64,000 nucleotides of DNA, from positions 124,001-188,000 of IMG/VR virus record IMGVR_UViG_3300022935_000005. One strand, given 5' to 3'. The translations under genes and the position numbers were made by a program. This document shows positions 12,680 to 45,021 of this stretch, one piece after another. Position 1 is the stretch's first letter. The number at the start of each line of letters is the position of its first letter. This DNA comes from a virus. A model generated the notes under the pieces. The model was given only the letters and a program-made list of their open reading frames with translations, had not been told where the DNA came from and did not search any database.

Positions 12680-13873
12680 ATGCGTTTACTAATCTATAAG
12701 CAGGTCACGGGCTTTCCGTATGATGTAATACTGCAGGATGGTATGCTGAAACCAGCACAGGAGTTGGAGGAGCATGACTTCTGCGTCGGTGACTTAACAG
12801 CACCTGCTGCTATCGAAGACCTTTTAAGACTCTATGGCTACGAGGTACCAGACTTGATCCCTCGTGAGTATAAGAACAGCTTCAAAGAGTGTGGTTATAC
12901 AGGTGATGTTCCATGGTCATATGTAATTCCCACCCCGCGGTTTAAGCAAATACTGATGCCATTCCTAAAAGACATACAAGAAATGACAGCAGAGGTAAGC
13001 AAGTCAGAGTATTCTTCATTCTTTCAAGACACGAATGCACTCTTTTCGATGCTCGAGCCCTGTACCCTAAATGAGAAGTCTGCTCGTTCGATTCTTGAAA
13101 ACGAAGATAACCATGTCCTTAATTCTTTTGTAAGTTCATCTGTAGGCGGCTCTTTACCCGTACCACAGTATTCTAGGTCTTCGACAAAGACTGGACGTCT
13201 AGTGGTGAAATCAGGCCCTCAAATATTAACGATGAAGAAAGACCACAGGGCTGTTCTAAGAGCATCATCACGAAACAAAAAGTTATACGAAATAGACTTT
13301 GTTTCTCTTGAGCCGCGAGTTGCTTTGAACATCGCTGGTGCGGACCTACGGGGTGATGTATACACTTCATTCTCTGAGAACTTGGGGCTTGGAATCAGCA
13401 GAGATGCAGCGAAGTTAGCAGTATTATGTACTTTATACGGCGCCGGGAAGTATAGGCTGGAAAGTATGCTCAGAGATGAAGGTTCTGATATACCAGTAGA
13501 GAAGCTAATGAAAGAGGTTGCAAATTACTTTAAGGTAGACAGCCTGAGTAAAAGCCTATCAGATCAAGCAAAGACTGGATCCATCACTAACCTTTTTGGT
13601 CGACCTATCGAGGTTGATGACCAGCGCCCCTCTATCTTGGTTAATAACTTCCTGCAATCTACTGCCGTTGATGTATCTCTTGCCGGCTTTCTGGATTTTT
13701 GCAGACAGTTCGCGGGTGTCGTAAAACCCTTATTTATTATCCATGACGCTCTGCTATTTGAGGCAGATCCTAAGAAACTTACGGCGGTATCTGAATATGT
13801 ATCTAATGGATACGATATGCAGGGTGTAGGCAAGTTCCCACTGAAGATTACGGAGTTAAACTCTAATGAATGA
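12680..13873 (+). CDS. Minimal family A DNA polymerase
   Basis: Encodes 397 residues carrying only the polymerase part of a Pol I-type enzyme. Motif A is IDFVSLEPRV (about residue 204, catalytic Asp and Glu kept). Motif B is RDAAKLAVLCTLYG (about residue 240, Arg, Lys and Tyr kept, Leu at the Phe762 position). Motif C is IIHDALLFE (about residue 354). In motif C the catalytic Asp is present but the adjacent Glu of the usual HDE is Ala. No 3'-5' or 5'-3' exonuclease domain is fused: a separate DEDDh exonuclease lies two genes downstream and 5'-nucleases are separate genes. A full family C polymerase is also encoded at 34322, so this enzyme may serve repair, priming or gap filling. The thumb region is short. 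Confidence 0.85.
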   Translation: MRLLIYKQVTGFPYDVILQDGMLKPAQELEEHDFCVGDLTAPAAIEDLLRLYGYEVPDLIPREYKNSFKECGYTGDVPWSYVIPTPRFKQILMPFLKDIQEMTAEVSKSEYSSFFQDTNALFSMLEPCTLNEKSARSILENEDNHVLNSFVSSSVGGSLPVPQYSRSSTKTGRLVVKSGPQILTMKKDHRAVLRASSRNKKLYEIDFVSLEPRVALNIAGADLRGDVYTSFSENLGLGISRDAAKLAVLCTLYGAGKYRLESMLRDEGSDIPVEKLMKEVANYFKVDSLSKSLSDQAKTGSITNLFGRPIEVDDQRPSILVNNFLQSTAVDVSLAGFLDFCRQFAGVVKPLFIIHDALLFEADPKKLTAVSEYVSNGYDMQGVGKFPLKITELNSNE

Positions 13874-23219: not shown

Positions 23220-24140
23220 ATGGACAAAGTATTCTACAACAAAAGCTCCGCCGATTCATTGGGATGGGATCCCTCGTGGTTCGGAGCAGATGAACATGAT
23301 GATGATTTAGTAAAAGCAATTAAGAAGTGGCAAAAGTCTCACGGATTAACTGCTGATGGGTTATGCGGTCCTGCGACGTATAGAAGAATTTGGACAGAGA
23401 GAGAAGATGAGATATCAGACTTTTCTCCTTCCCAAAGCTCATGTCGATCAGGCGATAAGTTTATTGTTCATAACGGTAATTTCCTACCTATAGAGTGGGA
23501 CAAAGTTGTTCTGTGGGACGAACCTGATGGTCTAGGATGCAAAGACGGTACTTACACCAGCTATGCCGGGAAACCTGATAGACGACCGCACTATTTTGTT
23601 AACCACTGGGACGTCTGCTTGTCTACTGAGTCAATGGCAAACGTGATTGCGAAAAGAGGAATATCAATCCATTTTGGTATCGACAATGATGGCACGATTT
23701 ACCAGCTATTAGATACGCAGCATGCCGCTTGGCAGGCTGGCGGTAGGAAATGGAATCATGAGAGTATTGGCGTCGAGATTGCAAATGCCTTCTACCCGAA
23801 ATACCAGAGCTGGTATGAACGTAAGGGCTTCGGCTCCAGACCTATCAACCCTGCTGGTTCCGTAAAGTGTCACGGTAGAGGATTGGAAGAGCACCTTGGG
23901 TTCTATGACGTTCAAATTGACGCTTTAAAAGCTCTCTGGAAGGCGCTTCACAAAGGGTTAGATATACCCTTACAATGTCCGACTGATTCTTCAGGTGAGC
24001 TAATTACAACTGTTGATAAAGAGTGCGAAAGATCTAGGTTTTCCGGGTTCATAAACCACTACAATCTTACTAAGAGAAAGATCGATTGCGCTGGTCTAGA
24101 TTTAGCCGCTCTTTTAGATGAGTGTCGGAGAGAAGTATAA
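23220..24140 (+). CDS. N-acetylmuramoyl-L-alanine amidase endolysin
   Basis: Encodes 306 residues. Residues about 25-60 form a peptidoglycan-binding repeat (AIKKWQKSHGLTADGLCGP). From about residue 125 comes an Amidase_2/PGRP domain with SIHFGIDNDGTIYQLLD, HAAWQAGG and SIGVEIANAF, and the late zinc-ligand region HYNLTKRKIDCAG. It cleaves the bond between muramic acid and the stem peptide at lysis. There is no signal peptide, so release probably depends on a holin; holin- and spanin-like genes are 25 kb away at 48.8-51.1 kb. Confidence 0.85.
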   Translation: MDKVFYNKSSADSLGWDPSWFGADEHDDDLVKAIKKWQKSHGLTADGLCGPATYRRIWTEREDEISDFSPSQSSCRSGDKFIVHNGNFLPIEWDKVVLWDEPDGLGCKDGTYTSYAGKPDRRPHYFVNHWDVCLSTESMANVIAKRGISIHFGIDNDGTIYQLLDTQHAAWQAGGRKWNHESIGVEIANAFYPKYQSWYERKGFGSRPINPAGSVKCHGRGLEEHLGFYDVQIDALKALWKALHKGLDIPLQCPTDSSGELITTVDKECERSRFSGFINHYNLTKRKIDCAGLDLAALLDECRREV

Positions 24141-25138
24141 TGGTACATGTTGATTATGTTTGGGTTGACGGACTGGAATCACCCCTTGTGCGTTCAAAGA
24201 CAAAGATCGTAACTCCATCTGTAAGCCAGAAAGGTGAAATGGAGATCCAAATTGCTGAATGGACGTTTGACGGCTCCTCGACGAACCAGGCAGTCACAAG
24301 CAACTCTGAGCTTTTGCTTAAGCCACACAGAGTCTATCAGTTATCAGATCAACACTACATTGCTCTTTGCGAAGTCTGTGATCCAGCTTCTGGAGAACCA
24401 CACGACACAAATTACCGAGCCGTCTTAAGGGATAAGATAGCAGAGTCTGGTGACAAGGGACTGTGGGTAGGTTTTGAACAGGAGTTTTTTATCACCAAGA
24501 ACGACAAGAACGTTTTGTGGCCTAAGCATGGTCTGCCACCACAGGACACTAGGTACTACTGTTCCTCTGGTGGACCCATCAGACATAGAAAACTTGTGAG
24601 AGAACACGCTACGATCTGTAACAAGGCTGGAATTAGCGTCGTTGGCTATAATACTGAGGTTTCCCCCGGGCAGTGGGAATATCAAGTATTTGCAGAAGAT
24701 CCGCTAAAGGCTGCTGACGACCTGTGGGTTAGTAGATACATTCTGCAATTGTGTTGTGAGACATACGACATTGGTATAGATTGGCACCCGAAACCGCACG
24801 AGGGCTGGAACGGATCTGGATGTCATACGAATTTTTCGACTAACTCCATGAGAGAATCAGGTGGCGAAGAGTTGTTCAGAGCGATTATGGAAACTGCGTC
24901 AGCCAAACATTCTGAGCATATGCAGAACTACGGGAAGTTGAACAGGAGGAGAATGACAGGAGAGCATGAAACATCTTCTTACAGTGAATTTTCGTGGGGC
25001 GTCGGTTCCAGAAATACAAGTGTCAGAGTCCCTGTGGCGACAGCCGAGGAGTGGAAGGGTTACGTAGAAGACCGCCGCCCCGCTTCAAATTGTGACCCTT
25101 ATAGAGTCGTAAGGTGTGTGCTCGAATATGTAAAGTAG
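24140..25138 (+). CDS. glnA: Type II glutamine synthetase
   Basis: Encodes 332 residues from ATG 24140, which shares one base with the amidase stop (TAATG) and has GGAG upstream. The sequence is of the eukaryote-like GSII class: VDYVWVDG start, WTFDGSSTNQA, GFEQEFF, EVSPGQWEYQ, NGSGCHTNFST and EDRRPASNCDPYRV. The substrate and metal residues of the family are in place, so it should be active in making glutamine from glutamate, ammonia and ATP. It probably supports nucleotide synthesis during infection or shifts host nitrogen state. GSII is rare in phages as far as I know. Confidence 0.9.
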   Translation: MVHVDYVWVDGLESPLVRSKTKIVTPSVSQKGEMEIQIAEWTFDGSSTNQAVTSNSELLLKPHRVYQLSDQHYIALCEVCDPASGEPHDTNYRAVLRDKIAESGDKGLWVGFEQEFFITKNDKNVLWPKHGLPPQDTRYYCSSGGPIRHRKLVREHATICNKAGISVVGYNTEVSPGQWEYQVFAEDPLKAADDLWVSRYILQLCCETYDIGIDWHPKPHEGWNGSGCHTNFSTNSMRESGGEELFRAIMETASAKHSEHMQNYGKLNRRRMTGEHETSSYSEFSWGVGSRNTSVRVPVATAEEWKGYVEDRRPASNCDPYRVVRCVLEYVK

Positions 25139-25140
25139 TT

Positions 25141-25578
25141 ATGGAGAATTTAGAACTTATAGCTACTCATATGTGCAAAGAATCTTGTGTCGGATATCAT
25201 GGTAACCTATTTGGTGGAACCATGCTGGCATGGTTGGATGAAGCCGGTGTCGCCTTCGCTTCACAAGTCTGCGGTTCGCCAAGAATGGTGACAAAGTCAA
25301 TATCAGAAGTCATCTTCGTGCGGCCTGTTCGTCCTGGGCAAATCATAAAGATATACGGTGATGTCGTGAATATTGGCAACACGTCTATTAAGATTAGATT
25401 GTTTGCAAGGCGACACAGCGTAGTGAACGGCTCACAAAAGCCTGTCTGCGATGTTGAGATGACGTTTGTCAGAATTGATGGCGACGGTGAGCCTGTACCA
25501 ATCTTGAATATAAAAGAAAAGTACGCTGATAAAAAGCAGAAGATAGAATCTGAAGTAAGAAAAGATATGGAGTATTGA
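25141..25578 (+). CDS. Hotdog-fold acyl-CoA thioesterase (YciA-like)
   Basis: Encodes 145 residues, starting 2 bases after the glutamine synthetase stop. The pattern HGNLFGGTMLAWLDEAG (with the catalytic-type Asp) followed by TKSISEVIFVRPVRPGQII is that of YciA/BACH-type thioesterases, which hydrolyse acyl-CoA. The C-terminus is a short charged helix. A link to membrane lipid remodelling before lysis is possible but nothing local proves it. Its stop overlaps the ThyX start (TGATG). Confidence 0.75.
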   Translation: MENLELIATHMCKESCVGYHGNLFGGTMLAWLDEAGVAFASQVCGSPRMVTKSISEVIFVRPVRPGQIIKIYGDVVNIGNTSIKIRLFARRHSVVNGSQKPVCDVEMTFVRIDGDGEPVPILNIKEKYADKKQKIESEVRKDMEY

Positions 25579-26327
25579 TGTTAGATAGAGTTGAATTGTA
25601 TGGCGATGGTATTGGAACAGTAGAGTACGTCGAGCACATGGGCAATGATTTGACAATCGTCAATAGCGCCAGAGTTTCATTTGGAAAGCACAAGGAAGAG
25701 TTAGATGAGAAAGACGAGAAGCTTATTAAGTACCTTGTTAACCACGGCCACACGAGTACGTTCGAGCATAATGTTGTCACTTTTCGCTTTGTGGTTCCTC
25801 TCTTTATTAGGAGCCAGCATCACCGTCATAGGACTTGGAGTTATAACGAGATTAGCAGACGGTATACTGACGTTGATCTAAGGTTTTATGAACCGGATAG
25901 TTTTAGGACCCAGCACAAGAGTAATAGACAGGCAAGCAACGTCCAAGAAGAGGTGGATCCTGTAATAATACCTGACTTAAGTGACGCTGGCTATGGGACG
26001 AGAGCATCACAAGTAGTGAGAGAGCACCATGTCCAGAGCTTGAACCTTTATAACAGTTTACTGTCAGCGGGAGTTTGTAGAGAGCAGGCACGAGGGGTGC
26101 TTCCTCAAAACCTCTACACAGAGTATTACGGGACATGTTCATTACATAACGCTCTTCATTTTTGTCGTCTCCGATTGCACGAGGGCGCCCAGTGGGAAAT
26201 TCAAAGAGTGGCTGAGGCCATGGTACAAATAATGTCGACATTGTATCCTGTCGCTGTGTCTGCGTGGATTGACAACTTGGATGATAAAGACCTCCGAAAA
26301 AAAATGAAAAAAAATATTAGCCTGTAA
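25578..26327 (+). CDS. thyX: Flavin-dependent thymidylate synthase
   Basis: Encodes 249 residues. The ThyX motif RHRxxSxNExSxRY is present as RHRTWSYNEISRRY (about residue 87). HTSTFEHNVVTFR precedes it and the C-terminal region ending QWEIQRVAEAM also fits. It makes dTMP from dUMP with FAD and methylene-folate. Because the ThyA-fold protein at 37991 looks specific for dCMP, ThyX is probably the only dTMP synthase encoded in this window. Confidence 0.93.
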   Translation: MLDRVELYGDGIGTVEYVEHMGNDLTIVNSARVSFGKHKEELDEKDEKLIKYLVNHGHTSTFEHNVVTFRFVVPLFIRSQHHRHRTWSYNEISRRYTDVDLRFYEPDSFRTQHKSNRQASNVQEEVDPVIIPDLSDAGYGTRASQVVREHHVQSLNLYNSLLSAGVCREQARGVLPQNLYTEYYGTCSLHNALHFCRLRLHEGAQWEIQRVAEAMVQIMSTLYPVAVSAWIDNLDDKDLRKKMKKNISL

Positions 26328-31237: not shown

Positions 31238-31660
31238 ATGAGCTGGATACCACCGAAATCTCCTTTTGATTTACTTCAAGAAAGGTATTGGCCAGACGAT
31301 TGGAAAATTCTGATCGTCTGTCTTTTATTGAACCAAACAAGCCGTAAACAAGTTGAGCCAATGATCGAGTCATTCTTCGAGAAGTGGCCTGATCCAGAGT
31401 CAGCTTCCAATGCTGATGAAGATGAGATGCGTGATCTTGTCCGTCCTCTTGGCATGTTCAACCGCCGGGTGAAATCCATCAAAAAGATGTCTCAACAGTT
31501 CATGTCTGGTTTCGATAACGCAATCGAGCTTTATGGTTGTGGAAAGTATGCCGATGACACCTACCGAATCTTTATGAAGGGTGAGTGGAGAGATGTTGAG
31601 CCAAATGATCATGCTCTGAACGATTATCACGGATATTTACGGGAGGTGTATTCTGCCTGA
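31238..31660 (+). CDS. MBD4-like HhH-GPD mismatch DNA glycosylase
   Basis: Encodes 140 residues, essentially only the catalytic domain. Motif by motif it follows vertebrate MBD4: SPFDLLQERYWPDDWKILI, LLLNQTSRKQ, LVRPLGMFNRRVKSI, IELYGCGKYADDTYRIF and VEPNDHALNDYH, with the catalytic Asp at about residue 124. MBD4-type enzymes remove T, U and 5-hydroxymethyluracil opposite G. The gene overlaps the Nei-like glycosylase gene by 8 bases, so the two form a base-excision repair pair. In a phage with modified cytosine it would repair deaminated bases; that link is inferred. Confidence 0.75.
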   Translation: MSWIPPKSPFDLLQERYWPDDWKILIVCLLLNQTSRKQVEPMIESFFEKWPDPESASNADEDEMRDLVRPLGMFNRRVKSIKKMSQQFMSGFDNAIELYGCGKYADDTYRIFMKGEWRDVEPNDHALNDYHGYLREVYSA

Positions 31661-32465
31661 AGGTCCTGAGGTAAAGAAGACCACAGACGGATTGAGAGAG
31701 TTCTTCTTAAATGAGGAGATAACTGCTCTAGATTTCGGATCTGGAAGGTACGCCAAGAAAGAACCCATCGGCTACTCATCTTTTTGCGAAGAACTTCCAA
31801 AGCTGGTGACAGCAGTTGGATGCAAGGGAAAGTTCATCTATTTTGTGTTTGCAGACGGCAGCAGCATGTGGAACACTTTAGGCATGACAGGATGGTGGTC
31901 AGAGACAGCAGGCTATCATCCTCGCGCTGCGTTGTATGTCAATGATGATAAACATATGGTGTATAACGATATGAGGAATTTTGGGACCTTCAAGTTTGTC
32001 AGCACATACGATGAGCTAAAGAAGAAACTTAACTCCTTAGGCCCAGACTTGCTCTCTGAAGATGTTTCGTTAGATGTATTTAAGAAAAGCCTTACGAAAG
32101 GAAAGAGGGCTGAGAAACCCATCTCGCAACTCTTGATGGATCAATCTGTCGTGTCAGGAATTGGAAACTACCTCAAGGCAGAGATCTTGTACAGCTGCAA
32201 GATGTCTCCTCATCGGCTGTGTCAAGATATCTCTGATGGCGAGTTCGAGTCGCTGCTTTACGCTTCAAGAAGTATTATGAAGTTATCGTATAGCACTGGT
32301 GGTGCGACCATCCGAAATTATAAAAGCACGACTGGTAAAAATGGCATGTACACTAGAAGGTTCGCTGTCTATAATCAAAAGAGTGATCCTCTTGGAAACG
32401 CTGTAGTCAGAGAAACGACGGCTGATAAAAGGACCACACACTGGGTTCCAAGTATTCAGAAATAA
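31653..32465 (+). CDS. Fpg/Nei-family DNA glycosylase, zincless, CTG start
   Basis: Fpg/Nei enzymes need Pro at position 2 and Glu at 3. The frame reads CTG-Pro-Glu-Gly-Pro-Glu-Val from 31653, with GGAGGT at 31642-31647, 5 bases upstream. The start is therefore probably CTG 31653 (270 residues); the later TTG 31692 would remove the catalytic Pro. The body has the two-domain layout with VVSGIGNYLKAEILYSC (H2TH) and a C-terminal hairpin TTADKRTTHWVPSIQ that keeps the Arg-Thr-Thr and Pro-x-x-Gln framework but no zinc Cys, as in NEIL1-type zincless fingers. It removes oxidised bases and nicks the strand. Confidence 0.8.
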   Translation: MPEGPEVKKTTDGLREFFLNEEITALDFGSGRYAKKEPIGYSSFCEELPKLVTAVGCKGKFIYFVFADGSSMWNTLGMTGWWSETAGYHPRAALYVNDDKHMVYNDMRNFGTFKFVSTYDELKKKLNSLGPDLLSEDVSLDVFKKSLTKGKRAEKPISQLLMDQSVVSGIGNYLKAEILYSCKMSPHRLCQDISDGEFESLLYASRSIMKLSYSTGGATIRNYKSTTGKNGMYTRRFAVYNQKSDPLGNAVVRETTADKRTTHWVPSIQK

Positions 32466-32707: not shown

Positions 32708-33073
32708 ATGCAAGATAGGCTAGAGCAGATTTTTGAACTCCGCCAGGAGTTTATGTCTAAGATTAATCAAAAGATACCGGGAGCTTACCCTGAATGGCCC
32801 ATTGATCTTTCTTCAAAGGCAGATCAGAAAGCTGTTCGAGAATTTGCGTTCCGAGGTATGGAAGAGCTCTTTGAGGCTCTGTTACATCTCAAGAACTGGA
32901 AAGACCATAGAGCTGGGTCTGGTGACTTTGATCGAGACGAGTTTGTTGAAGAGATGATTGATGCCTATAAATACTTTACTGCAATTTTGATTCTCATGGG
33001 TGTAGATAGCCAGGAGTTTTTCGAGTGCTACGTTAATAAGCACAATAAGATTTGCGATAGGCTAAATCAATGA
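32708..33073 (+). CDS. All-alpha dCTPase/dUTPase-like pyrophosphatase (T4 gp56-like)
   Basis: Encodes 121 residues. The all-alpha NTP-pyrophosphatase metal motif is visible as GMEELFEAL and, about 30 residues later, FVEEMIDAYKYF (E-x-x-E ... E-x-x-D). The end (LMGVDSQEFFECYVNKHN) lines up with the end of T4 gp56 (GLGMNAEEIFKLYYLKNK). T4 gp56 hydrolyses dCTP and dUTP so that only modified cytosine enters DNA. The same role would fit the cytosine-modification genes at 38-43 kb. A plain dUTPase is the alternative. Confidence 0.68.
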   Translation: MQDRLEQIFELRQEFMSKINQKIPGAYPEWPIDLSSKADQKAVREFAFRGMEELFEALLHLKNWKDHRAGSGDFDRDEFVEEMIDAYKYFTAILILMGVDSQEFFECYVNKHNKICDRLNQ

Positions 33074-34321: not shown

Positions 34322-37300
34322 ATGCGTCGTTCATCTCTTCTTGTGCCTGACAGGTTCATCTCTCTTCATTCCCATGATGGGTTTAGTACCTTCGATGGCT
34401 TAGGCTATCCTCAAGAGCACATCGATTTTGTGATTGAGAATGGGATGGACGGGTGGTGTCTTACCAACCATGGTCACATGAATTCTTTCGGTCACGCTTT
34501 TTTGCACGCTGAAAAGATTGCGAAGCGTGGCGGAAACTTTAAGTTTGTACCAGGGTGCGAGATGTATGTCCATCCTGATCTAGATGCGTGGCGCCTTGAC
34601 ATGCAGATCCGAGAAGCTGCTAAGAAGGGTGATAAGGCCGCGCTCATGACTCTTCGTTCTCAGCGAGAAGCTATTGCTACACCACTGACTGCAATTGTTG
34701 ATGGTGATGACGAAATTGTAGATGTTGGCACCGAAGATGCTGGTCTCACTGTTGAGAATGAAGAAGAAACCAAGTCTGCAAAGTTCTATGATCCAATCAA
34801 ACGCCGCCATCATTTGGTAGTCCTTCCCAAGACGAGCGAAGGTCTCCAGCGTCTTTTTCACCTCGTCAGTAAGGGGTATCAGGAGGGCTTCTATCGCTTC
34901 CCACGTATCGACTATAAGATGCTAAAGGAAGCGGCCGCTGGTGGTCATCTGATGGTTTCTACAGCTTGTATCGGCGGTCCAATCGCTTACGAGGTTTTCC
35001 GTCATGCTCAGCAAGTTGAGTTTGATGATCTTTCGTATAAGTTGATGGATGACCCGACTTTCCGAAACAACGTCTTGACTGGCGTTGGAAATGCGTACCA
35101 GGGTCTTGTAGACGCTGTTGGTATCGATGATGTTAATCTCGAACTTCAATTTAATAAGCTTCCTGCGCAGCATCTGGTCAACCGCGCGATTATTGAGTTT
35201 GCTAACAAGAACGGGCTACAAGATAAGCTGGTAGTCACAACCGATTCTCACTACGCACGTCCAGAACACTGGCGAGAGCGTGAGCTCTATAAGAAGCTTG
35301 GGTGGCTTAACTATCGAGAGTTTGATCCCTCCAAGTTGCCGCAAGGTATTGAAGACTTGAAGTGTGAACTATATCCTAAGAACAACGAACAGGTTTGGGA
35401 TACGTACCTTAAGACAACTGACGGTATGGATTTTTATGATGATGAGGTAGTGCACAACGCCATCACTCGCCCGTATGATCTTGTCCACAACGAAATCCAA
35501 CAGATTACCCCTGATCGTTCGATGAAGCTGCCCTCTTACGTCGTTCCTGAAGGTACTACTGACGATAAGGCTCTACTTGAAGCCTGTAAGAAGGGTTTGG
35601 TCGAGCGTGGTCTTGCGCACGATGAAAAGTACATCAAGCGTCTCAAGTATGAGCTAAAGATCATCAAGGAAAAGAATTTTTCTCGATATTTCTTGACCAT
35701 GGGCGCCATCATCGATATCGCTAAGAAGGCGATGCTGGTCGGTCCAGGCCGCGGTTCTGCTGCCGGAAGTCTCGTGGCGTATGTTCTCCGTCTTACCGAC
35801 GTTGATCCATTTGAGTATGATCTCATGTTTGAGAGGTTCCTCAACCCAAGCCGTGAAGGTGCACCAGATATTGATACTGATGTAGGTGACCGTGATCTTC
35901 TTATCAACATGATGAAAGAGGAGTGGGGCGACGAAAACATCGTTCCAATCTCTAACTACAACACTTTTAAGCTTAAGTCTCTGGTCAAGGACATCTCTCG
36001 CTTTTACGGGATCCCGTTCGATGAAGTCAACAAGGCTTTGGCTCCTGTAGAGGATGACGTGAAGCGTGCCGTGTTCAAGCCCGGCACTGATAAAAACTTG
36101 TTTGTCTTGCTTTATGAAGATGCGATTGCTCACTCGAAGACATTTCGCGACTTTATTGAGAAGTACCCTGAGGTTGCCGAGCCGATTCAGGTACTCTTTA
36201 AGCAGAACAAGGCACTTGGCCGCCACGCCGGTGGATGTATTGTTTCGGAAAACATCGCTGAGCGTATGCCTCTGATTAAAGCCCGCGGCGAACTACAAAC
36301 TCCGTGGGTTGAAGGTATGAACTACAAGCATCTTGAAACCTTCGGCTGGATTAAGTTTGACCTTCTCGGTCTTGAAACACTACGTATTGTTCAGCGTACT
36401 ATCGAGCTGATTCTTCAGCGCCGGGAGGGTATCGAGGATCCGACATTCTCGCAAGTCTATGAGTGGTTCAACAATAACATGGACCCCAAGGTTCTCGATA
36501 TGGACGACCAGCATGTTTATAAGCATGTCTACGAAGAAGGTCGCTTCCCAGGAGTCTTCCAGCTGGCTGGTCGAGGTGCTAGAAACCTCTTTATGAAAGC
36601 AAAGCCCAAGAGCATCATCGACATTGCTACTCTGACATCGATTTATCGCCCGGGCCCTCTCACTGCGAAAGTAGACAAACTGTATATCCAGGCAAAGAAC
36701 AACCCTGATGATATTGACTACGGCCATCCTCTTATCAAGGAAGTTCTTGAAGAGACATACGGTATGATTGTCTTCCAAGAGCAGATCATGAAGTTGTGTT
36801 CCGTGGTGGCTGGCTTCCCGGAGGAGGAAACGGACACAGTCCGCCGGAGCATTATGAAGCGTAAAGCTTCTGAAGCCGCTGAGTCCCTTGCTAAGGCTCG
36901 AGCGATTAAGGAACAGTTTGTTGCTGGTGCCGTCAAGAATGGTGTCGACGCACAGCTTGCCGATGATCTGTACGAAAAGATTCTCTACTTCTCAGGCTAC
37001 GGTTTCAATAAGGCGCACGCTGTTTCGTACGCTATTGACTCGTACTACTGCGCTTGGCTTCTAACATACTTTGAGGAAGAGTGGCTTTGCGCTTATCTCG
37101 AGGCGATGTCTGGTAATGACAAGAAGCGTAGTAAGGCCTTTGGTGAGGTTAAGGCTCTCGGCTATCGAGTCGTTCCGCTTGATATCAATTATGCAACCAA
37201 GAAGTGGACTATCCTCGACGGTAAGAAGTTCATGCCTTCTTTCCTTTCTTGTAAGGGCGTCGGAGAATCTGCGATCGATGAGATTGTCGCTAATCGGCCG

Positions 37301-37936
37301 TACCAGAATATCGACGATCTGTTATGGGACGAGGATGGTAAGTGGCGCCACTCTAAGTTCAACAAGCGGGCAATGGAAGCGTTAATTAATATTCGCGCAT
37401 TCGAATCCATGGATCTTGTAGGCGACGGTAAGACATTCGAGAGCTATAAGCACATGCATGAAGTCATTATAAACCGGAACACCGATATCAAGAAATGGAC
37501 TAAGCGTGATCCAGAGCGAGGAAAGAGTAATTTCAAAGAGGCGCTATTGGATACTGAGGGAATCGGTAATTGGACCCGTCGTGAGATGGTCGAAAATAGC
37601 ATGAAGCATTTCGGTTCATTTAACGCCTCCACACTCGTTAATGAGGAAATTCAGGCTCGGCTCTCTAAGAAGAATGTACGTTGTATCGATGACATCGACG
37701 AGCATGATGTATATTGGTTCTTGGTGACAGACGCTAAGCCGAAGCTTACTAAAAACAAGAAGCCATATCTTTTGGTGACGGCCACAGGACTAGACGGCAA
37801 AAATATCAGGATATTCTGCTGGGGCTGGGATGGTCAGACAGAGTTGCCCCTCTACAGCCTTTGTGTTGCAGAAGTTAAGAAAAATGATTTCGGATATCAA
37901 ACTTCTATGAGTAAAGTCAAGCTTCTTCGTATATGA
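34322..37936 (+). CDS. dnaE: DNA polymerase III alpha subunit (family C)
   Basis: Encodes 1204 residues, full length for DnaE. The PHP domain begins SLHSHDGFSTFDG (about residue 13). The palm has PGRGSAAGSLVAYVL (about 474) and the catalytic PDIDTD (about 516). The fingers/beta-binding region includes GYGFNKAHAVSYA (about 900). Helix-hairpin-helix and OB-like segments follow to the C-terminus. Residues 110-160 hold an acidic insertion within the PHP region. It is probably the main replicative polymerase; no other holoenzyme subunit (clamp, clamp loader) is in the window. It stands at the head of a long operon with its own promoter and AGGAG box. Confidence 0.92.
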   Translation: MRRSSLLVPDRFISLHSHDGFSTFDGLGYPQEHIDFVIENGMDGWCLTNHGHMNSFGHAFLHAEKIAKRGGNFKFVPGCEMYVHPDLDAWRLDMQIREAAKKGDKAALMTLRSQREAIATPLTAIVDGDDEIVDVGTEDAGLTVENEEETKSAKFYDPIKRRHHLVVLPKTSEGLQRLFHLVSKGYQEGFYRFPRIDYKMLKEAAAGGHLMVSTACIGGPIAYEVFRHAQQVEFDDLSYKLMDDPTFRNNVLTGVGNAYQGLVDAVGIDDVNLELQFNKLPAQHLVNRAIIEFANKNGLQDKLVVTTDSHYARPEHWRERELYKKLGWLNYREFDPSKLPQGIEDLKCELYPKNNEQVWDTYLKTTDGMDFYDDEVVHNAITRPYDLVHNEIQQITPDRSMKLPSYVVPEGTTDDKALLEACKKGLVERGLAHDEKYIKRLKYELKIIKEKNFSRYFLTMGAIIDIAKKAMLVGPGRGSAAGSLVAYVLRLTDVDPFEYDLMFERFLNPSREGAPDIDTDVGDRDLLINMMKEEWGDENIVPISNYNTFKLKSLVKDISRFYGIPFDEVNKALAPVEDDVKRAVFKPGTDKNLFVLLYEDAIAHSKTFRDFIEKYPEVAEPIQVLFKQNKALGRHAGGCIVSENIAERMPLIKARGELQTPWVEGMNYKHLETFGWIKFDLLGLETLRIVQRTIELILQRREGIEDPTFSQVYEWFNNNMDPKVLDMDDQHVYKHVYEEGRFPGVFQLAGRGARNLFMKAKPKSIIDIATLTSIYRPGPLTAKVDKLYIQAKNNPDDIDYGHPLIKEVLEETYGMIVFQEQIMKLCSVVAGFPEEETDTVRRSIMKRKASEAAESLAKARAIKEQFVAGAVKNGVDAQLADDLYEKILYFSGYGFNKAHAVSYAIDSYYCAWLLTYFEEEWLCAYLEAMSGNDKKRSKAFGEVKALGYRVVPLDINYATKKWTILDGKKFMPSFLSCKGVGESAIDEIVANRPYQNIDDLLWDEDGKWRHSKFNKRAMEALINIRAFESMDLVGDGKTFESYKHMHEVIINRNTDIKKWTKRDPERGKSNFKEALLDTEGIGNWTRREMVENSMKHFGSFNASTLVNEEIQARLSKKNVRCIDDIDEHDVYWFLVTDAKPKLTKNKKPYLLVTATGLDGKNIRIFCWGWDGQTELPLYSLCVAEVKKNDFGYQTSMSKVKLLRI

Positions 37937-37990: not shown

Positions 37991-39013
37991 ATGCACTTAG
38001 GCACTTATGAAGGTTTCACTGACTGTTATGTTGATATGATTTCAAAGGTCATGCGTGAACCGCAATACGAATCTGCACCTCGCGGCCAGAATATCAAAGA
38101 GATCCTCGGGGCTTCATTTACAATCAAGAACCCTCGTGACAGAATTCCTTACGTCGTAGGTCGTAAGTTTAGCATGAGTTACATGGTCGCTGAGCTGATA
38201 TGGTATCTTGCGGGTGATAATAGTACTGAGTGGATATCGAAGTATTCATCCTTCTGGAAAGATATTAGTGACGACGGTGTGACTGCAAATTCAGCGTATG
38301 GTGCCCGTCTCTTTAAGCCGCATGACAAGATTGCGCAGGGCAGATATACTCAGCTCGATTACGTGATTGAAGAGCTTAAACGAGATCCTGATTCTCGGCG
38401 AGCTGTCATGCATCTAAGAGTTCCAGATGACTCTATTGATGCGAAGCTTGATGTACCTTGTACACTAGCTCTACAGTTTTTTATTAGAAACGGTGCTCTA
38501 CACCAAGTTGCTAACATGAGAAGCTCGGACTTGATTTTTGGGATTGCTTACGATATTCCCGCATTCACAATGTTTCAAGAACTGATTGCAAATGAGCTTG
38601 GCGTTGATGTGGGTACGTACACTCACACAAGCAACTCACTCCATATCTACGAACGTCATTTTGATATGGCTGAAGAGATTACTAGAACGGGCCTCGTTGA
38701 TGAATCGCTGAATCTACAACAGGCAAATGGTCCTATGCCACCGCTGGTAGGTGATATCAAAGAAGTCCAAGAGAAGGTGGCTGAAGTCTACGAGTATGAA
38801 TCCCAACTACAGCGTTGCGAGAATTTACAGGATGTAATAAACCTACATGATTTAAGCCAGTCTTTCTCTGATTCTATGTTCCGTGATTTTGCAACTATTC
38901 TTACGTCATCTCGTCTAAGAAAACTTGGTCATAAAGCGGATGCGCGAGCAATGTCCGCGCAGACGTCCTTTAGCGGATATTCTTTTAATGTCAGGAGTAA
39001 CTCTAATGCATAA
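37991..39013 (+). CDS. ThyA-fold deoxycytidylate hydroxymethylase (T4 gp42-like)
   Basis: Encodes 340 residues of the thymidylate synthase superfamily: RDPDSRRAVM (phosphate site), catalytic Cys157 in VPCTLALQFF, MRSSDLIFGIAYD and THTSNSLHIYERH. At the position of E. coli ThyA Asn177, which reads uracil, this protein has Asp188. T4 dCMP hydroxymethylase has Asp at the same place, and both share NMRSxD and Cys-Thr instead of Cys-His at the active site. It should therefore act on dCMP, making hydroxymethyl- or methyl-dCMP. ThyX is encoded separately. The gene overlaps the galactopyranose mutase gene by 8 bases. The C-terminal 90 residues are an added helical region. Confidence 0.75.
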   Translation: MHLGTYEGFTDCYVDMISKVMREPQYESAPRGQNIKEILGASFTIKNPRDRIPYVVGRKFSMSYMVAELIWYLAGDNSTEWISKYSSFWKDISDDGVTANSAYGARLFKPHDKIAQGRYTQLDYVIEELKRDPDSRRAVMHLRVPDDSIDAKLDVPCTLALQFFIRNGALHQVANMRSSDLIFGIAYDIPAFTMFQELIANELGVDVGTYTHTSNSLHIYERHFDMAEEITRTGLVDESLNLQQANGPMPPLVGDIKEVQEKVAEVYEYESQLQRCENLQDVINLHDLSQSFSDSMFRDFATILTSSRLRKLGHKADARAMSAQTSFSGYSFNVRSNSNA

Positions 39014-40151
39014 GAAATACGACTACCTTATCGTAGGTGCTGGCCTTTTCGGTGCCACTTTCGCTCGGCAGCTGACTGATGCGGGATACACATGTCTAGT
39101 TGTTGATAGACGGAGCCACATCGGCGGGAATGTATACAGCGAAAAGAGAAACGGCATCGATGTTCACGTCTACGGTGCTCACATTTTCCACACTAATGAT
39201 GACCGTATTTGGGACTATGTAAATCGATTTACAGAGTTTAACAATTACATTAACAAGCCTAAGGTTCGGTACGGTAACAACATCTATTCTTTCCCGATCA
39301 ATTTGATGACTCTTCACCAGCTCTGGGGTGTTACGTCACCAGCAGAAGCAGAAGCAAAGCTAAAAGAGGTCAGGATTCCTTGTGAGAATCCCGACAATCT
39401 AGAAGATTGGATTCTATCACAGGTAGGCCCGGAGATCTATCAGACGTTCATTAGGGGGTACACGATGAAGCAGTGGCAGCGTGACCCAAGAGAGCTACCA
39501 GCCTCTATTATCAAGCGGCTACCGATTCGAATGATTTTCGAAGAGAATTACTTTTTTGACAAGTACCAAGGTATTCCAGTAGGCGGGTATACGCAAATGG
39601 TCGCGAATATGTTAGAGGGTATTGAGGTCAGGACAGGGGTCGAGTATTTTACCGACCGGTCAGAGCTTGAGTCCTTGGCACACAACGTAGTATTTACCGG
39701 TAAGGTCGATGAATATTTCGATTACTGTGAGGGTGAGCTAGAGTATCGAACCCTACGGTTCGAACATGAAGAGCTTGAGGGCGATTTTCAAGGTAACGCG
39801 GTTGTGAATTATACACATCCAGAAGTGCCCTTCACACGTATTCTAGAGCATAAGCATTTTCAGCCCCAGACGGCTTCGAAGATTGAGAACACAATCGTCA
39901 CTCGAGAGTATTCTGCAGAGTATAAGCGAGGAAAGACACCGTACTATCCGATCAACGATGCGCGAAATACTGCTCTATACCAAAAGTATGCTGCCATGAA
40001 AGCTGCGACTCCTAACGTCATTTTTGGCGGGAGGTTATCTGAATACAAGTACTATGATATGCATCAGGTGATCGGTTCTGCTCTTGTTAAGGCAAGAAAA
40101 GAAATTGAAAAACGTAAGAGCAACGACTACAATATAACAGTTGAATCATAA
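39006..40151 (+). CDS. glf: UDP-galactopyranose mutase
   Basis: Encodes 381 residues from ATG 39006 (AGGAG upstream). The FAD-binding start LIVGAGLFGATFARQL, the DRRSHIGGNVY region, GAHIFHTND, SFPINLMTLHQLW and the late FGGRLSEYKYYDMHQ are the standard Glf signature at full length. It converts UDP-galactopyranose to UDP-galactofuranose using reduced flavin. It is sandwiched between the dCMP hydroxymethylase and a glycosyltransferase, which suggests that a furanose sugar is made for DNA or another phage target. Confidence 0.92.
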   Translation: MHKKYDYLIVGAGLFGATFARQLTDAGYTCLVVDRRSHIGGNVYSEKRNGIDVHVYGAHIFHTNDDRIWDYVNRFTEFNNYINKPKVRYGNNIYSFPINLMTLHQLWGVTSPAEAEAKLKEVRIPCENPDNLEDWILSQVGPEIYQTFIRGYTMKQWQRDPRELPASIIKRLPIRMIFEENYFFDKYQGIPVGGYTQMVANMLEGIEVRTGVEYFTDRSELESLAHNVVFTGKVDEYFDYCEGELEYRTLRFEHEELEGDFQGNAVVNYTHPEVPFTRILEHKHFQPQTASKIENTIVTREYSAEYKRGKTPYYPINDARNTALYQKYAAMKAATPNVIFGGRLSEYKYYDMHQVIGSALVKARKEIEKRKSNDYNITVES

Positions 40152-40162
40152 GGAGATTTGTA

Positions 40163-41218
40163 ATGAGAGTACTTTATAGCTTTTGGGGCTTTATCACCCC
40201 GCTCGAAAAGAACACAGTTGTCAACACACCAGACGGTGAGCGAGGTAACAGGGTTGATTTTGTCAATGAACTAATGTCTCGAGGGCATACTCCAGTTCAG
40301 CTGCAGAAGATGCGCGATGAAGAGCAGTACCCAGGCGTTGAGTATGATGCAACTGGCTTCCCAGATGGTGACATTCTGTACGTTGAGTGGAGGTGGCCAA
40401 CTTGGAAGAACAGCGGAGAAAACCCAGCTGAATCTGATTACAATCGACAATGCGAGGTTCTTGATTACTATCACGCTCAGGGTGTTCCGATTATTATTCA
40501 CGACGGTGATTTGAAGATGACTCCTGAGGAAGAACTCCGATGGCCAAACGCTATTCTAGCAGATGCCTGTGTGTCACCGCAGCACCAGACCCGTAATCGT
40601 ATCACAATTCCGTGGTGCAATTACCTTAAGCGGTATTTCGAGCCAGTTGAGTATTCGTACAACTACACATACGTTGGAAACAACTACGAGCGAGAGGATC
40701 CATTTGAGAAGTATTATGTACAGCCCTCTCAGCGGCTTCGCATGGCCGGCCTACAGACATCCATCTACGGTAACTGGCTTCAAAAGTCTCCAGAGCGAAT
40801 TGATCCAGCTCTTTTGCTAGCCAAGACGCCAAGCGTTGCTTTTGGGCCACGTCTTTCCTACAAGGATATTTTCGCAGTCTTAAACGAGTCGATTACTGTG
40901 ACTCACATTACCAAGCCTGCTTACACTCCTTATGGGAACATCACAGGTCGATTCTTCGAGGCAATCAAGAGTAACGTTCCAGCCTTGGTGCCGATTGAGT
41001 TTCAGCATGCTGTTCCAGTGGGCCTTAAGGATGAGTCCCTACTCGTAAGAAGCGCTGACGATGTTGTTGAGAAAGTAAAGTGGCTTTCTACATTAAATGC
41101 TTCCGAGAGAAAAGCTCTTGTTGACGCTCAAGAAGAAGCATTACGAACCGTGATAAACCCTCATCCCGGATACCGAGTTGACCTTCTTGAAAGTGTTGCA
41201 GGAGATTTTATCCGATGA
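40163..41218 (+). CDS. GT-B-type glycosyltransferase
   Basis: Encodes 351 residues, AGGAG before the ATG. The N-terminal half starts with a Rossmann-like strand (MRVLYSFWGFITP) and a short nucleotide-free loop. The C-terminal half has PYGNITGRFFEAIKSNVPALVP followed by LLVRSADDVVEKVKWLSTL, the usual donor-binding end of GT-B enzymes. Residues 330-345 are helical. No close family comes to mind. Given its neighbours it may move galactofuranose (or arabinofuranose) onto hydroxymethylcytosine in DNA; transfer to a virion or cell-surface glycan is the alternative. Its stop overlaps the kinase start by 4 bases. Confidence 0.65.
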   Translation: MRVLYSFWGFITPLEKNTVVNTPDGERGNRVDFVNELMSRGHTPVQLQKMRDEEQYPGVEYDATGFPDGDILYVEWRWPTWKNSGENPAESDYNRQCEVLDYYHAQGVPIIIHDGDLKMTPEEELRWPNAILADACVSPQHQTRNRITIPWCNYLKRYFEPVEYSYNYTYVGNNYEREDPFEKYYVQPSQRLRMAGLQTSIYGNWLQKSPERIDPALLLAKTPSVAFGPRLSYKDIFAVLNESITVTHITKPAYTPYGNITGRFFEAIKSNVPALVPIEFQHAVPVGLKDESLLVRSADDVVEKVKWLSTLNASERKALVDAQEEALRTVINPHPGYRVDLLESVAGDFIR

Positions 41219-41733
41219 AAGTAGCTTTTATTGGTCCTGACATGACTGGCAAGTCGAATATTGCTGAAGCGTTATCAGAGAGGTTGTCGATTCCAGTATT
41301 CAAGAACTCTGGAGAGTGGAAGACACAGCTGGATAGCCCAAATTACTTCCTGAACTTGCTTCGTTACGGCGGTCCGTTTTTAATGGATTTTATGAAGCAG
41401 ACCAACGTAAGCGTTATTCTGGACAGGTTCTACCCTTGTGAGCTAGTATACTCTCAAGCGTTCGATAGAGACACTGATCATCAAGCCATCGCGTGGATGG
41501 ATGAGCAGTTTTCGAATGAAGGAGGAGTCTTTATTCTTTGCCTGAGAAAAGATTATTCTGGACTAGTCGATGATGTATTCCCAGAAGACCTCCCTGGGGA
41601 GAAACTAGAAGAGATTGGCTCTCTTTATAAGGATTTTGCGAAGTGGTCCCAATGTGAAGTGATGACTCTATACACTGATGATTGGGATATCAATAGACAG
41701 ATTAAAGACATAACTGATTTTTTGGGAGTTTGA
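41215..41733 (+). CDS. P-loop deoxynucleoside monophosphate kinase
   Basis: Encodes 172 residues. The P-loop is GPDMTGKSNIAEAL (residues 7-20), followed by VILDRFYPCELVYSQAF, which matches the DR-x-x-x-S region of thymidylate-kinase-like enzymes. A LID-like segment (LRKDYSGLVDD) follows. In T4 the dNMP kinase gp1 phosphorylates hydroxymethyl-dCMP. The overlap with the glycosyltransferase gene and closeness to the dCMP hydroxymethylase favour the same role, though substrate cannot be read from sequence. Confidence 0.68.
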   Translation: MKVAFIGPDMTGKSNIAEALSERLSIPVFKNSGEWKTQLDSPNYFLNLLRYGGPFLMDFMKQTNVSVILDRFYPCELVYSQAFDRDTDHQAIAWMDEQFSNEGGVFILCLRKDYSGLVDDVFPEDLPGEKLEEIGSLYKDFAKWSQCEVMTLYTDDWDINRQIKDITDFLGV

Positions 41734-41734
41734 C

Positions 41735-42727
41735 ATGAGTTTGCGTAAAGCGTTAGTTACAGGGTGTTGTGGTTTTATTGGATCTCATCTTACTAGGATG
41801 TTAGTAGGACAAGGTTGGTACGTAGAGGGTGTTGATGATTTGTCGAACGGCGATCTTACATCTATCGATGACCTAAAATTCAGAGCAGTACATGATTCTT
41901 TGTTACCGTTCTATAATGCTGAACCCTCGGCTGGTAGTCTTCTTGTGATGACGTGCGATTTCGCTTCGCCAGCTGTCTTAGAGAGGGTTACAACTGGAAG
42001 TTATGATGTTATTTTCCATCTTGCTGCAAACCCCCGTGTTGAGTTCTCCGTACAAAATCCAGCTTTGACAACTAATGATAACGTTCAAAAGACTGTAGAG
42101 CTGATGTCAGCCGCAAGAAATAATATCGATCGTTTTGTCTTCGCTGCTTCTTCTGCCGCATATGGAAACGGTGTAGAGTTGCCTACTACAGAACAAGAGC
42201 AGTGTAATCCCACTTCACCATATGGTCTACAGAAGCTTGTTGTAGAGCAATTCGGTAAGCTGTATAGTGAGTTATACGGCATGGATTTTGCCGCCTTGAG
42301 GTTCTTCAATGTGTACGGTCCAGGTCAGGACGGGACTAGCCCTTACTCAACAGCAATATCTGCTTGGTGCACACGCCTAAAGAAAGGTGAGCCTCTACGA
42401 AGTGATGGTGACGGCCAGCAGTCAAGAGATCTAGTCTATGTCGAAGATGTAGCTAGCGCTCTAACGCAGGTAGCGAATCATCCAGAGAGACTTGGGTTTG
42501 AGGTCTTTAATGTTGGGACCGGTATTGCCTTGACGAACAAAGAAGTTCTAGATCATCTGACAAAGCTGTTTCCTGATGCTGAAGTAAATCATGCTCCTGA
42601 AAGACCTGGCGACGTTAAGCACACTCTAGCTGCCGCTGATCACATCAAGGAGAAAATTGGGTGGGAACCTAAGGTTGAATTTTGGGATGGTCTGACAGCC
42701 ACACTAGAGTGGTGGAAGCTAGCATGA
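41735..42727 (+). CDS. galE: NAD-dependent UDP-sugar 4-epimerase (GalE-like)
   Basis: Encodes 330 residues of the extended short-chain dehydrogenase family. NAD site TGCCGFIGSH (residues 9-18), IFHLAANPRVEFS, catalytic Ser in FAASSAAYG and Tyr/Lys in YGLQK, then RFFNVYGPGQ and RDLVYVEDVA. GalE-type enzymes make UDP-galactose from UDP-glucose, the substrate for the mutase two genes upstream. UDP-xylose/arabinose or other 4-epimerisations are also possible. The stop overlaps the cupin start by 4 bases. Confidence 0.82.
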   Translation: MSLRKALVTGCCGFIGSHLTRMLVGQGWYVEGVDDLSNGDLTSIDDLKFRAVHDSLLPFYNAEPSAGSLLVMTCDFASPAVLERVTTGSYDVIFHLAANPRVEFSVQNPALTTNDNVQKTVELMSAARNNIDRFVFAASSAAYGNGVELPTTEQEQCNPTSPYGLQKLVVEQFGKLYSELYGMDFAALRFFNVYGPGQDGTSPYSTAISAWCTRLKKGEPLRSDGDGQQSRDLVYVEDVASALTQVANHPERLGFEVFNVGTGIALTNKEVLDHLTKLFPDAEVNHAPERPGDVKHTLAAADHIKEKIGWEPKVEFWDGLTATLEWWKLA

Positions 42728-43155
42728 ATCGCTCTGCCTGGCGTGGCAAGTCCTCGAAAATAAAGAAGCCATGGGGCTTCGAAATAAAGTGGACCGGCCT
42801 TTTTAATGGAAAAGAGATTCATATCTCTGATGGGAAAAGAACGAGTCTGAAGTTTAACTCTCACAAAAGCGAGATTCTTTACGTGTCAGTAGGAAGAGTT
42901 AGTATTGAATGTGCAGATGAGAATCACTTTTTAGATCCCGTAGGATCCCCGTCAAGGCTCGTTGAATTAAAGGCTGGTGAATTCATTAATGTCCAAGCAG
43001 GCTGTCCTTATAGGGTGACAGCATTAATGAATAGCATAGTGTTTGAAATATCTGATAATACTTCAGATGTTGGAAGGATTATTCTAGAAGATGATTATGG
43101 GAGAGAAGTGGATCAAACTGGCATGTGGATATTTAATCCTCCAAAGTCAGAGTAA
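42724..43155 (+). CDS. Cupin-domain protein
   Basis: Encodes 143 residues from ATG 42724. KKPWGFEIKW opens a single beta barrel, with SHKSEILYVSVGRVSIE and LKAGEFINVQAGCPYRVTAL, resembling the cupin of type II phosphomannose isomerases (RPWG motif). The metal His positions are poorly kept, so a binding or auxiliary role is as likely as catalysis. It closes the sugar cassette. Confidence 0.65.
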   Translation: MNRSAWRGKSSKIKKPWGFEIKWTGLFNGKEIHISDGKRTSLKFNSHKSEILYVSVGRVSIECADENHFLDPVGSPSRLVELKAGEFINVQAGCPYRVTALMNSIVFEISDNTSDVGRIILEDDYGREVDQTGMWIFNPPKSE

Positions 43156-44066: not shown

Positions 44067-44069
44067 TTG

Positions 44070-44624
44070 ATGAGTAAGGTTTATTCTACGATCTTAGCCG
44101 ATCCACCCTGGATGCAACGTGGAGGTGGTAAATCAAAACGAGGTGCTGACAGGCACTACCCTTTGATGAAAGAGGCAGATATCAAGAAAGTCATGTCTGA
44201 CATGCTGGATGGCAAAGTGGCCGACAATGCTCACATGTATATGTGGGTCGCCAATAACCACCTTCCTGAAGCGCTGAGAATAATAGAGCATCTGGGTTTC
44301 AAATATATCACCAATCTTGTATGGGCTAAGACTCATTTCGGTTTAGGAAGGTACTTCCGCGGCCAGCATGAGCTGTGCATATTCGCTACTAAGGGCCGCG
44401 GCTTTTCTGCTAGGACACAAGCTAATAACGTTCCCTCCCTTATTGGGGGTAAACTAGTTTCTCCTACCCGCCACAGTGCGAAGCCCGCCGAGATGTACGA
44501 ATTGATAGAAGGTAGAAGTGAGGGCCCCTTTCTGGAGCTGTTTGCGAGGACGAGACGCCCCGGCTGGGATGCGTTGGGTAATGAAGTACCTGAGGAAAAA
44601 GATGCAAAGACCGAACTGGGATGA
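44070..44624 (+). CDS. MT-A70-family adenine methyltransferase
   Basis: Encodes 184 residues from ATG 44070 (AGGAAGAG upstream). ILADPPW is the catalytic motif near residue 11. Also seen are HMYMWVANNHLPEAL, NLVWAKTHFGLGRYFRGQHEL and RPGWDALGNEVP, the normal course of the phage/bacterial MT-A70 group. It methylates N6 of adenine, presumably in phage DNA to resist restriction. Its end overlaps the dCMP deaminase gene by 23 bases. Confidence 0.82.
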   Translation: MSKVYSTILADPPWMQRGGGKSKRGADRHYPLMKEADIKKVMSDMLDGKVADNAHMYMWVANNHLPEALRIIEHLGFKYITNLVWAKTHFGLGRYFRGQHELCIFATKGRGFSARTQANNVPSLIGGKLVSPTRHSAKPAEMYELIEGRSEGPFLELFARTRRPGWDALGNEVPEEKDAKTELG

Positions 44625-45021
44625 CATATGGATGAAGTTTGCCTATTTGATTGCTGACCGGTCATATGACCCGCGTCACAAGGTGGGTTCTGTAGTTGTT
44701 ACTGACTCAAACACACAAGTGCTAGCAATAGGCTACAATGGAAATTATTCAGGCGGTCCAAATGAAGTCGAGTCAAACACACCTGGCGAGTCTGGCATGA
44801 TCCACGCGGAGATCAATGCAATGATAAAGCTAGACTTCAATAATCCGAATAGAAAGATAATGTATTTGACGCTAAGTCCTTGTCGAGCCTGCGCGAAAGC
44901 TATTGTCAATGGTGGCATTTCTGAGGTGGTGTACAGCGAAGAATATCGCGATACTTCTGGCTTAGAACTACTAAGTCACGCAGGAGTCAAAGTCAGAAGG
45001 CACGATATTAAGCAACTCTAG
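44602..45021 (+). CDS. dCMP deaminase
   Basis: Encodes 139 residues. ATG 44602 is preferred because GAGGAA lies 6-7 bases upstream; the frame is open to 44518 with further ATGs at 44569 and 44581. Zinc motif IHAEINAM (about residue 66) and PCRACAKAI (about 90) are typical. It converts dCMP to dUMP for ThyX and lowers the dCMP pool, so it competes with the dCMP hydroxymethylase for substrate. Confidence 0.88.
   Translation: MQRPNWDDIWMKFAYLIADRSYDPRHKVGSVVVTDSNTQVLAIGYNGNYSGGPNEVESNTPGESGMIHAEINAMIKLDFNNPNRKIMYLTLSPCRACAKAIVNGGISEVVYSEEYRDTSGLELLSHAGVKVRRHDIKQL

Follow-up and report, generated by a model that had tools for sequence, protein, structure and literature searches.

The window analysed here, a 64,000-nucleotide stretch comprising bases 124001–188000 of a 280,913-base virus record (IMGVR_UViG_3300022935_000005) from an uncultured giant phage, carries a block of six genes in which a UDP-galactopyranose mutase (Glf) is packed among predicted DNA-modification genes. 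The block raises the question of which modified base, and which sugar on it, the phage would make. The reading somewhat favoured for the whole proposed pathway was that the block makes glycosylated cytosine with galactofuranose on hydroxymethylcytosine, while the broader reading, that the phage DNA carries glycosylated hydroxymethylcytosine, was considered very probable. An open reading frame check of the window placed all six genes at 37991–43155 on the (+) strand. These encode a dCMP hydroxymethylase-type protein (HMase) with thymidylate synthase (TS) fold (37991–39013, 340 amino acids (aa); PF00303, 126.5 bits), Glf (39006–40151, 381 aa; GLF, 261 bits), a GT-B glycosyltransferase (GT) assigned by profile match as a divergent relative of T4 DNA beta-glucosyltransferase (BGT) (40163–41218, 351 aa), a thymidylate-kinase-like P-loop dNMP kinase (41215–41733, 172 aa; phrog_761 thymidylate kinase, 32 bits), a predicted GalE-like nucleotide-sugar 4-epimerase of the extended SDR family (41735–42727, 330 aa; PF01370, 179 bits), and a small cupin of the mannose-6-phosphate-isomerase C-terminal type (42724–43155, 143 aa). 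The HMase and Glf genes overlap by 8 bases, an 11-base gap separates Glf from GT, GT and kinase overlap by 4 bases, kinase and epimerase are 1 base apart, and epimerase and cupin overlap by 4 bases, exactly as the original prediction had described this tight packing.

In the case of the base, the key residues were read from HMase. Its TS fold was accompanied by the catalytic Cys157 and by Asp188 (motif RSSDLIFGIAYD), which on comparison of the FN motifs stands where TS has the base-reading Asn, the same as in T4 gp42; this combination defines the dCMP hydroxymethylases. Replacement of this Asn by Asp marks cytosine substrates, as established for T4 gp42. Cys157 and Asp188 were common to the window HMase, T4 gp42, RB69 ORF048c, and the protein of Lactobacillus phage ATCCB, and the closest solved structure was a CMP 5-hydroxymethylase (5jnh/5b6d). 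A base of 5-hydroxycytosine, as in RB69, with the sugar attached to the ring itself, was a rival reading. The RB69 5-hydroxy-dCMP synthase is a homologue of HMase, and in RB69-type DNA the arabinose is linked to 5-hydroxycytosine itself rather than to hydroxymethylcytosine (PMC13390438). However, HMase retains the folate-side Asp of RSxD as Asp180, in a stretch that corresponds to the folate-binding region of TS, with RSSD in the window against RSQN in RB69 and RS(S/N)D in the window, T4, ATCCB, and contig L220. As a discriminator based on two characterised phages, this pattern is mild evidence for the hydroxymethyl product, and the 5-hydroxycytosine reading was judged highly improbable. An RB69-type synthase identity for HMase was rejected, as the RSxN of ORF048c was replaced by RSSD. 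Thus, the RB69 precedent invoked in the original prediction stands for arabinose, while its premise of a hydroxymethylcytosine acceptor is outdated. Moreover, the phage genome encodes the thymidylate synthase ThyX (25575–26327, (+) strand; PF02511, 168.8 bits), so dTMP synthesis does not require a TS-fold gene. HMase is predicted to be a folate-dependent dCMP hydroxymethylase of the T4 gp42 type. The kinase matches were weak, comprising only AAA_28 and the phage thymidylate kinase family phrog_761, and the kinase is regarded as a putative hydroxymethyl-dCMP kinase.

In the case of the glycosyltransferase, a Pfam-type scan returned Glyco_trans_1_2 alone (27 bits) and the family model PF09198 (T4 BGT-type) gave no match; therefore, GT was named BGT-like and not filed as a member. 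When a GT profile of 17 relatives was compared with all PDB sequences, two matches were obtained, both T4 BGT chains (E 0.0058), and comparison with a profile of five BGTs gave a probability of 95% (E 1.8e-8, 132 columns). Two further GT-B enzymes encoded by this phage, used as controls against the BGT profile, gave 9% and 0.3%. Arg263 and Glu266, invariant in the 17 relatives, aligned with Arg269 and Glu272 of the UDP site of T4 BGT, and Asp114 or Asp116, in a region outside the scored alignment, may at a guess be the counterpart of the T4 catalytic Asp100. The structure model had a GT-B fold at moderate confidence (predicted local distance difference test (pLDDT), 74), and the fold search gave generic, unspecific GT-B matches, with 1ya6, the T4 alpha-glucosyltransferase with DNA, having the best query TM-score (0.63) among the 50 matches listed. 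The assignment of GT as a divergent relative of T4 BGT was well supported by the profile comparisons.

To place the block among other phages, GT was used to scan viral contigs, which yielded 26 loci with GT identities of 47–100%; this recurrence shows the block to be more than a chance arrangement. Clade 1 comprised 18 loci, three of them near-identical to the window, with the order dnaE-HMase-Glf-GT-kinase-epimerase, followed by cupin, a DHH phosphoesterase, and a dCMP deaminase unless the contig ended. Glf was single-copy and sat between HMase and GT in 18/18 of these loci. Clade 2 comprised eight loci with GT 47–62% identical to that of the window and the order dnaE-GT-kinase-HMase-epimerase, usually with cupin next; one of the eight ended after the kinase. 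The kinase lay directly 3' of GT in both clades wherever the locus was uncut. Although the order was rearranged between the clades, the genes were still adjacent; therefore, GT, kinase, HMase, and epimerase stay together beside the replicative polymerase, a DnaE-type DNA polymerase III alpha directly upstream of the block (34322–37936, (+) strand) that was syntenic in 26/26 loci. Neither GT nor cupin had a match in 50,697 phage records. The part of the original prediction that ran from hydroxymethyl-dCMP through the kinase to a DNA glycosyltransferase was well supported by the locus comparison, the HMase residues, ThyX, and the GT profile match.

The sugar was addressed through Glf and the epimerase. 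Glf passed the NCBIfam equivalog for UDP-galactopyranose mutase (365 bits against a cut-off of 304), and its best match was the E. coli enzyme (1i8t, 433 bits), of which it retains His62 and Lys170. Chain 4mo2, which we take to be the N-acetylgalactosamine (GalNAc)-type mutase of C. jejuni, has Arg and Arg at these two positions, which presumably govern GalNAc use. In the epimerase, the Rossmann and YxxxK motifs were intact, SPYGLQK (Tyr163, Lys167) was invariant, and the SSxxYG motif was without the dehydratase/decarboxylase acid; the score against the best NCBIfam GalE was 152 bits, under the cut-off of 262. The cupin reached 16.5 bits against PF01050 in the window, below the Pfam cut-off of 23.6, while the relative L018 passed at 29.2; its DDYGR end was conserved, and it appears to miss part of the usual metal-ligand pattern. 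Because of these cut-offs, two of the gene names first given, those of the GalE-like epimerase and the cupin, were softened. Galactofuranose as the sugar was rated slightly better than even, donor specificity not being readable from sequence. In vitro, UDP-arabinopyranose can serve as a substrate of Glf enzymes, which, together with an epimerase whose substrate is not fixed, would suit another furanose on hydroxymethylcytosine, arabinofuranose for example, which Glf would form from a UDP-pentose or another UDP-hexose. However, library scans of the block revealed neither a UDP-glucuronate decarboxylase nor a pentose gene, the isomerase and NTP-transferase genes known from the RB69 module were all absent, and the best Glf match was the E. 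coli mutase, so this alternative was very improbable. Arabinofuranose, originally proposed as the main alternative sugar, was dropped as the leading one because pentose genes were lacking.

Glf is also paired with base-modifying genes in phages that are unrelated to that of the window. Lactobacillus phage ATCCB has a cluster of kinase, HMase, BGT (PF09198), and Glf; contig L220 has a kinase, a TET-associated glycosyltransferase (TAGT; PF20691, phrog_842) overlapping Glf, and a gp42-type HMase; and contig L084 has a BGT homologue and Glf with a 4-base overlap. In the Kyanoviridae phage C48C1 (L247, 5555–9002), a TET/JBP dioxygenase, a glycosyltransferase of phrog_14998, and Glf have overlapping ends, an order that would represent a 5-methylcytosine-based route to the same end. 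Actinomycetia phage DSL-LC01 has a glycosyltransferase of the phrog_14998 kind, Glf, and a dUTPase_2-family gene, with a gp42-type HMase approximately 8 kb away, and Aeromonas phage Aes012 has Glf and a phrog_14998 glycosyltransferase, with a gp42-type gene elsewhere in the genome. As there was no profile match between GT and phrog_14998, the phrog_14998 enzymes were treated as a separate kind. The Glf tree had 34 rows; C48C1, Aes012, and DSL, whose branches are long, were excluded from the clade test. On this tree, the Glfs of clade 1, ATCCB, L220, and L084 needed four label changes, and their grouping as one clade was rejected (approximately unbiased (AU) test, p = 2.5e-7). Since the Glfs of the four pairings do not form one clade, the coupling of Glf with base-modifying genes arose repeatedly. 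There is about an even chance that galactofuranosylated hydroxymethylcytosine is widespread in the DNA of phages and has several origins, being made by Glf with a BGT-like enzyme, a true BGT, TAGT, or phrog_14998, and with a gp42-type HMase or a TET/JBP dioxygenase. A peptide-pattern search with the TAGT of L220 and the BGT of L084 gave no further viral relatives. Rhizobium phages were not counted as support, because their Glf lies away from HMase and the TS-like gene that they carry shows the residue pattern of RB69. These Rhizobium Pootjesviridae (L029 (phiM9), L030 (RHph_N34), L240, and L241) carry Glf and a TS-like gene with RSQN, which hints at glycosylated 5-hydroxycytosine rather than hydroxymethylcytosine in their DNA.

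Several observations weigh against galactofuranose on DNA. A neighbour survey was made of 184 fetched viral Glf loci, Glf being frequent among viral contigs. HMase accompanied Glf in the 25/184 loci of clade-1 type and in L220, and L084 has BGT; outside clade 1, HMase or BGT was thus near Glf in just 2 of approximately 159 loci. The GT-HMase block of clade 2 was without an adjacent Glf in all eight loci, and the clade-2 Glf (nine loci) immediately preceded a gene for a nuclease-like protein and the genes for two GT4 enzymes, in the neighbourhood of baseplate genes and mostly close to UDP-glucose dehydrogenase and GDP-mannose dehydratase. The genome of the window has the orthologous nuclease-GT-GT-baseplate stretch without Glf, in a glycan cluster that also includes GT2, fucosyltransferase-type, and sulfotransferase genes, so that Glf could still serve this cluster. 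The match between the GT and BGT profiles was confined to the sugar-nucleotide half. The epimerase misses the GalE cut-off, although it may still be a 4-epimerase. Glf has relocated between the block and the glycan cluster and may serve either or both. This second sugar cluster of the phage, at 36–54 kb of the genome (L032, L037), comprises four GT2-type genes, a GDP-mannose dehydratase, a fucose-synthase-like gene, a fucosyltransferase-family gene, a sulfotransferase, and two GT4 genes beside the baseplate genes.

Two rival readings draw on these observations. In one, the sugar on hydroxymethylcytosine is a common pyranose (glucose, galactose, or GalNAc), for which GT draws directly on UDP-glucose or on the product of the epimerase, and Glf serves the separate glycan cluster. 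The established donor of T4 BGT is UDP-glucose, GT, kinase, HMase, epimerase, and cupin form one group that lacks Glf in clade 2, and the two glycosyltransferases adjoining the clade-2 Glf have orthologues that persist in the genome of the window. Nevertheless, the single-copy Glf inside the HMase operon in every clade-1 locus and the independent origins of the BGT-Glf, TAGT-Glf, and TET-GT-Glf pairs made this reading rather unlikely. In the other, Glf, GT, and epimerase serve to glycosylate a virion protein or modify a host surface glycan, with HMase adjacent by chance; viral Glf genes mostly lack neighbours for DNA modification, and the phage does carry a glycan cluster. This was improbable, as the GT-kinase-HMase adjacency survives rearrangement between the clades and GT resembles a DNA BGT, unlike the cluster glycosyltransferases. 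Galactofuranose on hydroxymethylcytosine, as first proposed, remained the best single reading and gained support from the independent Glf pairings, but was weakened by the position of Glf in a surface-type glycan cluster in the sister phages of clade 2.

The analysis shows which genes are present, their order and conservation, and their key residues; from these we infer each reaction of the pathway, with the most reserve for the sugar. The pathway would begin with the conversion of dCMP to 5-hydroxymethyl-dCMP by HMase. The kinase would phosphorylate this product, host or phage enzymes would complete the triphosphate, and the phage DnaE polymerase would insert it into DNA. The epimerase would convert UDP-glucose to UDP-galactose, Glf would contract the ring to give UDP-galactofuranose, and the BGT-like GT would transfer galactofuranose to the hydroxymethylcytosine of the finished DNA. 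The linkage would probably be beta if BGT-like (inverting) chemistry holds, and the modification likely protects from restriction and CRISPR enzymes, by analogy with T4.

The block was compared with known systems. As in T4 (gp42, gp1, b-gt), a dCMP hydroxymethylase with the TS fold, a kinase for dNMPs, and a glycosyltransferase related to BGT lie near the DNA polymerase; however, the window has Glf and an epimerase, a DnaE polymerase, and a very divergent GT. As Glf and an epimerase are present, the donor is probably not UDP-glucose, unlike in T4. The arabinosyl-cytosine module of RB69/Mosigvirus likewise has a TS-fold enzyme, a thymidylate-kinase-like gene, and sugar genes beside the polymerase, but it has a 5-hydroxy-dCMP synthase with other residues (PMC13390438), isomerase/NTP-transferase sugar genes, and no Glf. 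ATCCB shares four functions in one cluster, namely, kinase, HMase, BGT-type glycosyltransferase, and Glf, and differs in having a true PF09198 BGT and no epimerase or cupin beside the cluster; no description of this cluster as a DNA-modification system was found in the literature searched. As in the bacterial glycan pathway (GalE-Glf-galactofuranose transferase), epimerase and Glf would supply the donor, but the acceptor there is a lipid or polysaccharide, whereas in the window it would be DNA.

The sugars known on phage hydroxymethylcytosine or hydroxycytosine DNA are glucose, gentiobiose, arabinose, and deoxypentose. In the literature searched, which did not cover a 2025 preprint on glycosylated 5-hydroxycytosine, there was no report of galactofuranose on DNA or of Glf in phage DNA modification; the claim of novelty was thus sustained to that extent, with priority uncertain. 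A paper on Agrobacterium phage Atu_ph04 notes a hydroxymethylase and Glf and assigns Glf to cell-wall synthesis (PMC6630229). If true, a hexose in furanose form would add a new class to the sugars of DNA, and this would matter for the defence enzymes of type IV restriction and base excision that recognise such sugars. The comparison also points to culturable phages with the Glf pairing, ATCCB and the Aeromonas Tulanevirus.

Other genes for nucleotides and DNA lie around the block. A nucleotide pyrophosphohydrolase (32708–33073, (+) strand; phrog_12184, 52.8 bits) is a candidate dCTP-removing enzyme; a MazG-like gene at 262 kb was the only MazG match in the phage genome, and dUTPase_2 was absent from it. 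A dCMP deaminase (44602–45021, (+) strand, start approximate, the open reading frame opening at 44518; PF00383, 69.5 bits) was syntenic in relatives. An MT-A70-type methyltransferase gene (44067–44624) follows the block; most clade-1 relatives have a distant version only (29–34% identity), and there was no match at this position in L015/L016 or clade 2. Adjoining genes for an HhH-GPD (endonuclease III-like) protein and a formamidopyrimidine-DNA glycosylase (31238–31660 and 31692–32465) form a base-excision-repair pair, which is unusual in a phage with predicted modified cytosine. A glutamine synthetase-like protein (PF00120, 78 bits) is encoded at 24122–25138. Finally, many otherwise unlike proteins (L041 11426–17572, L035, L043, L044, and L045) share an N-terminal motif, M-x-LLREYIRELLxE or MKITKxQLRxIIRE, as if it were a common N-terminal tag, and proteins with a similar beginning occur at 13866 and 47623 of the window.

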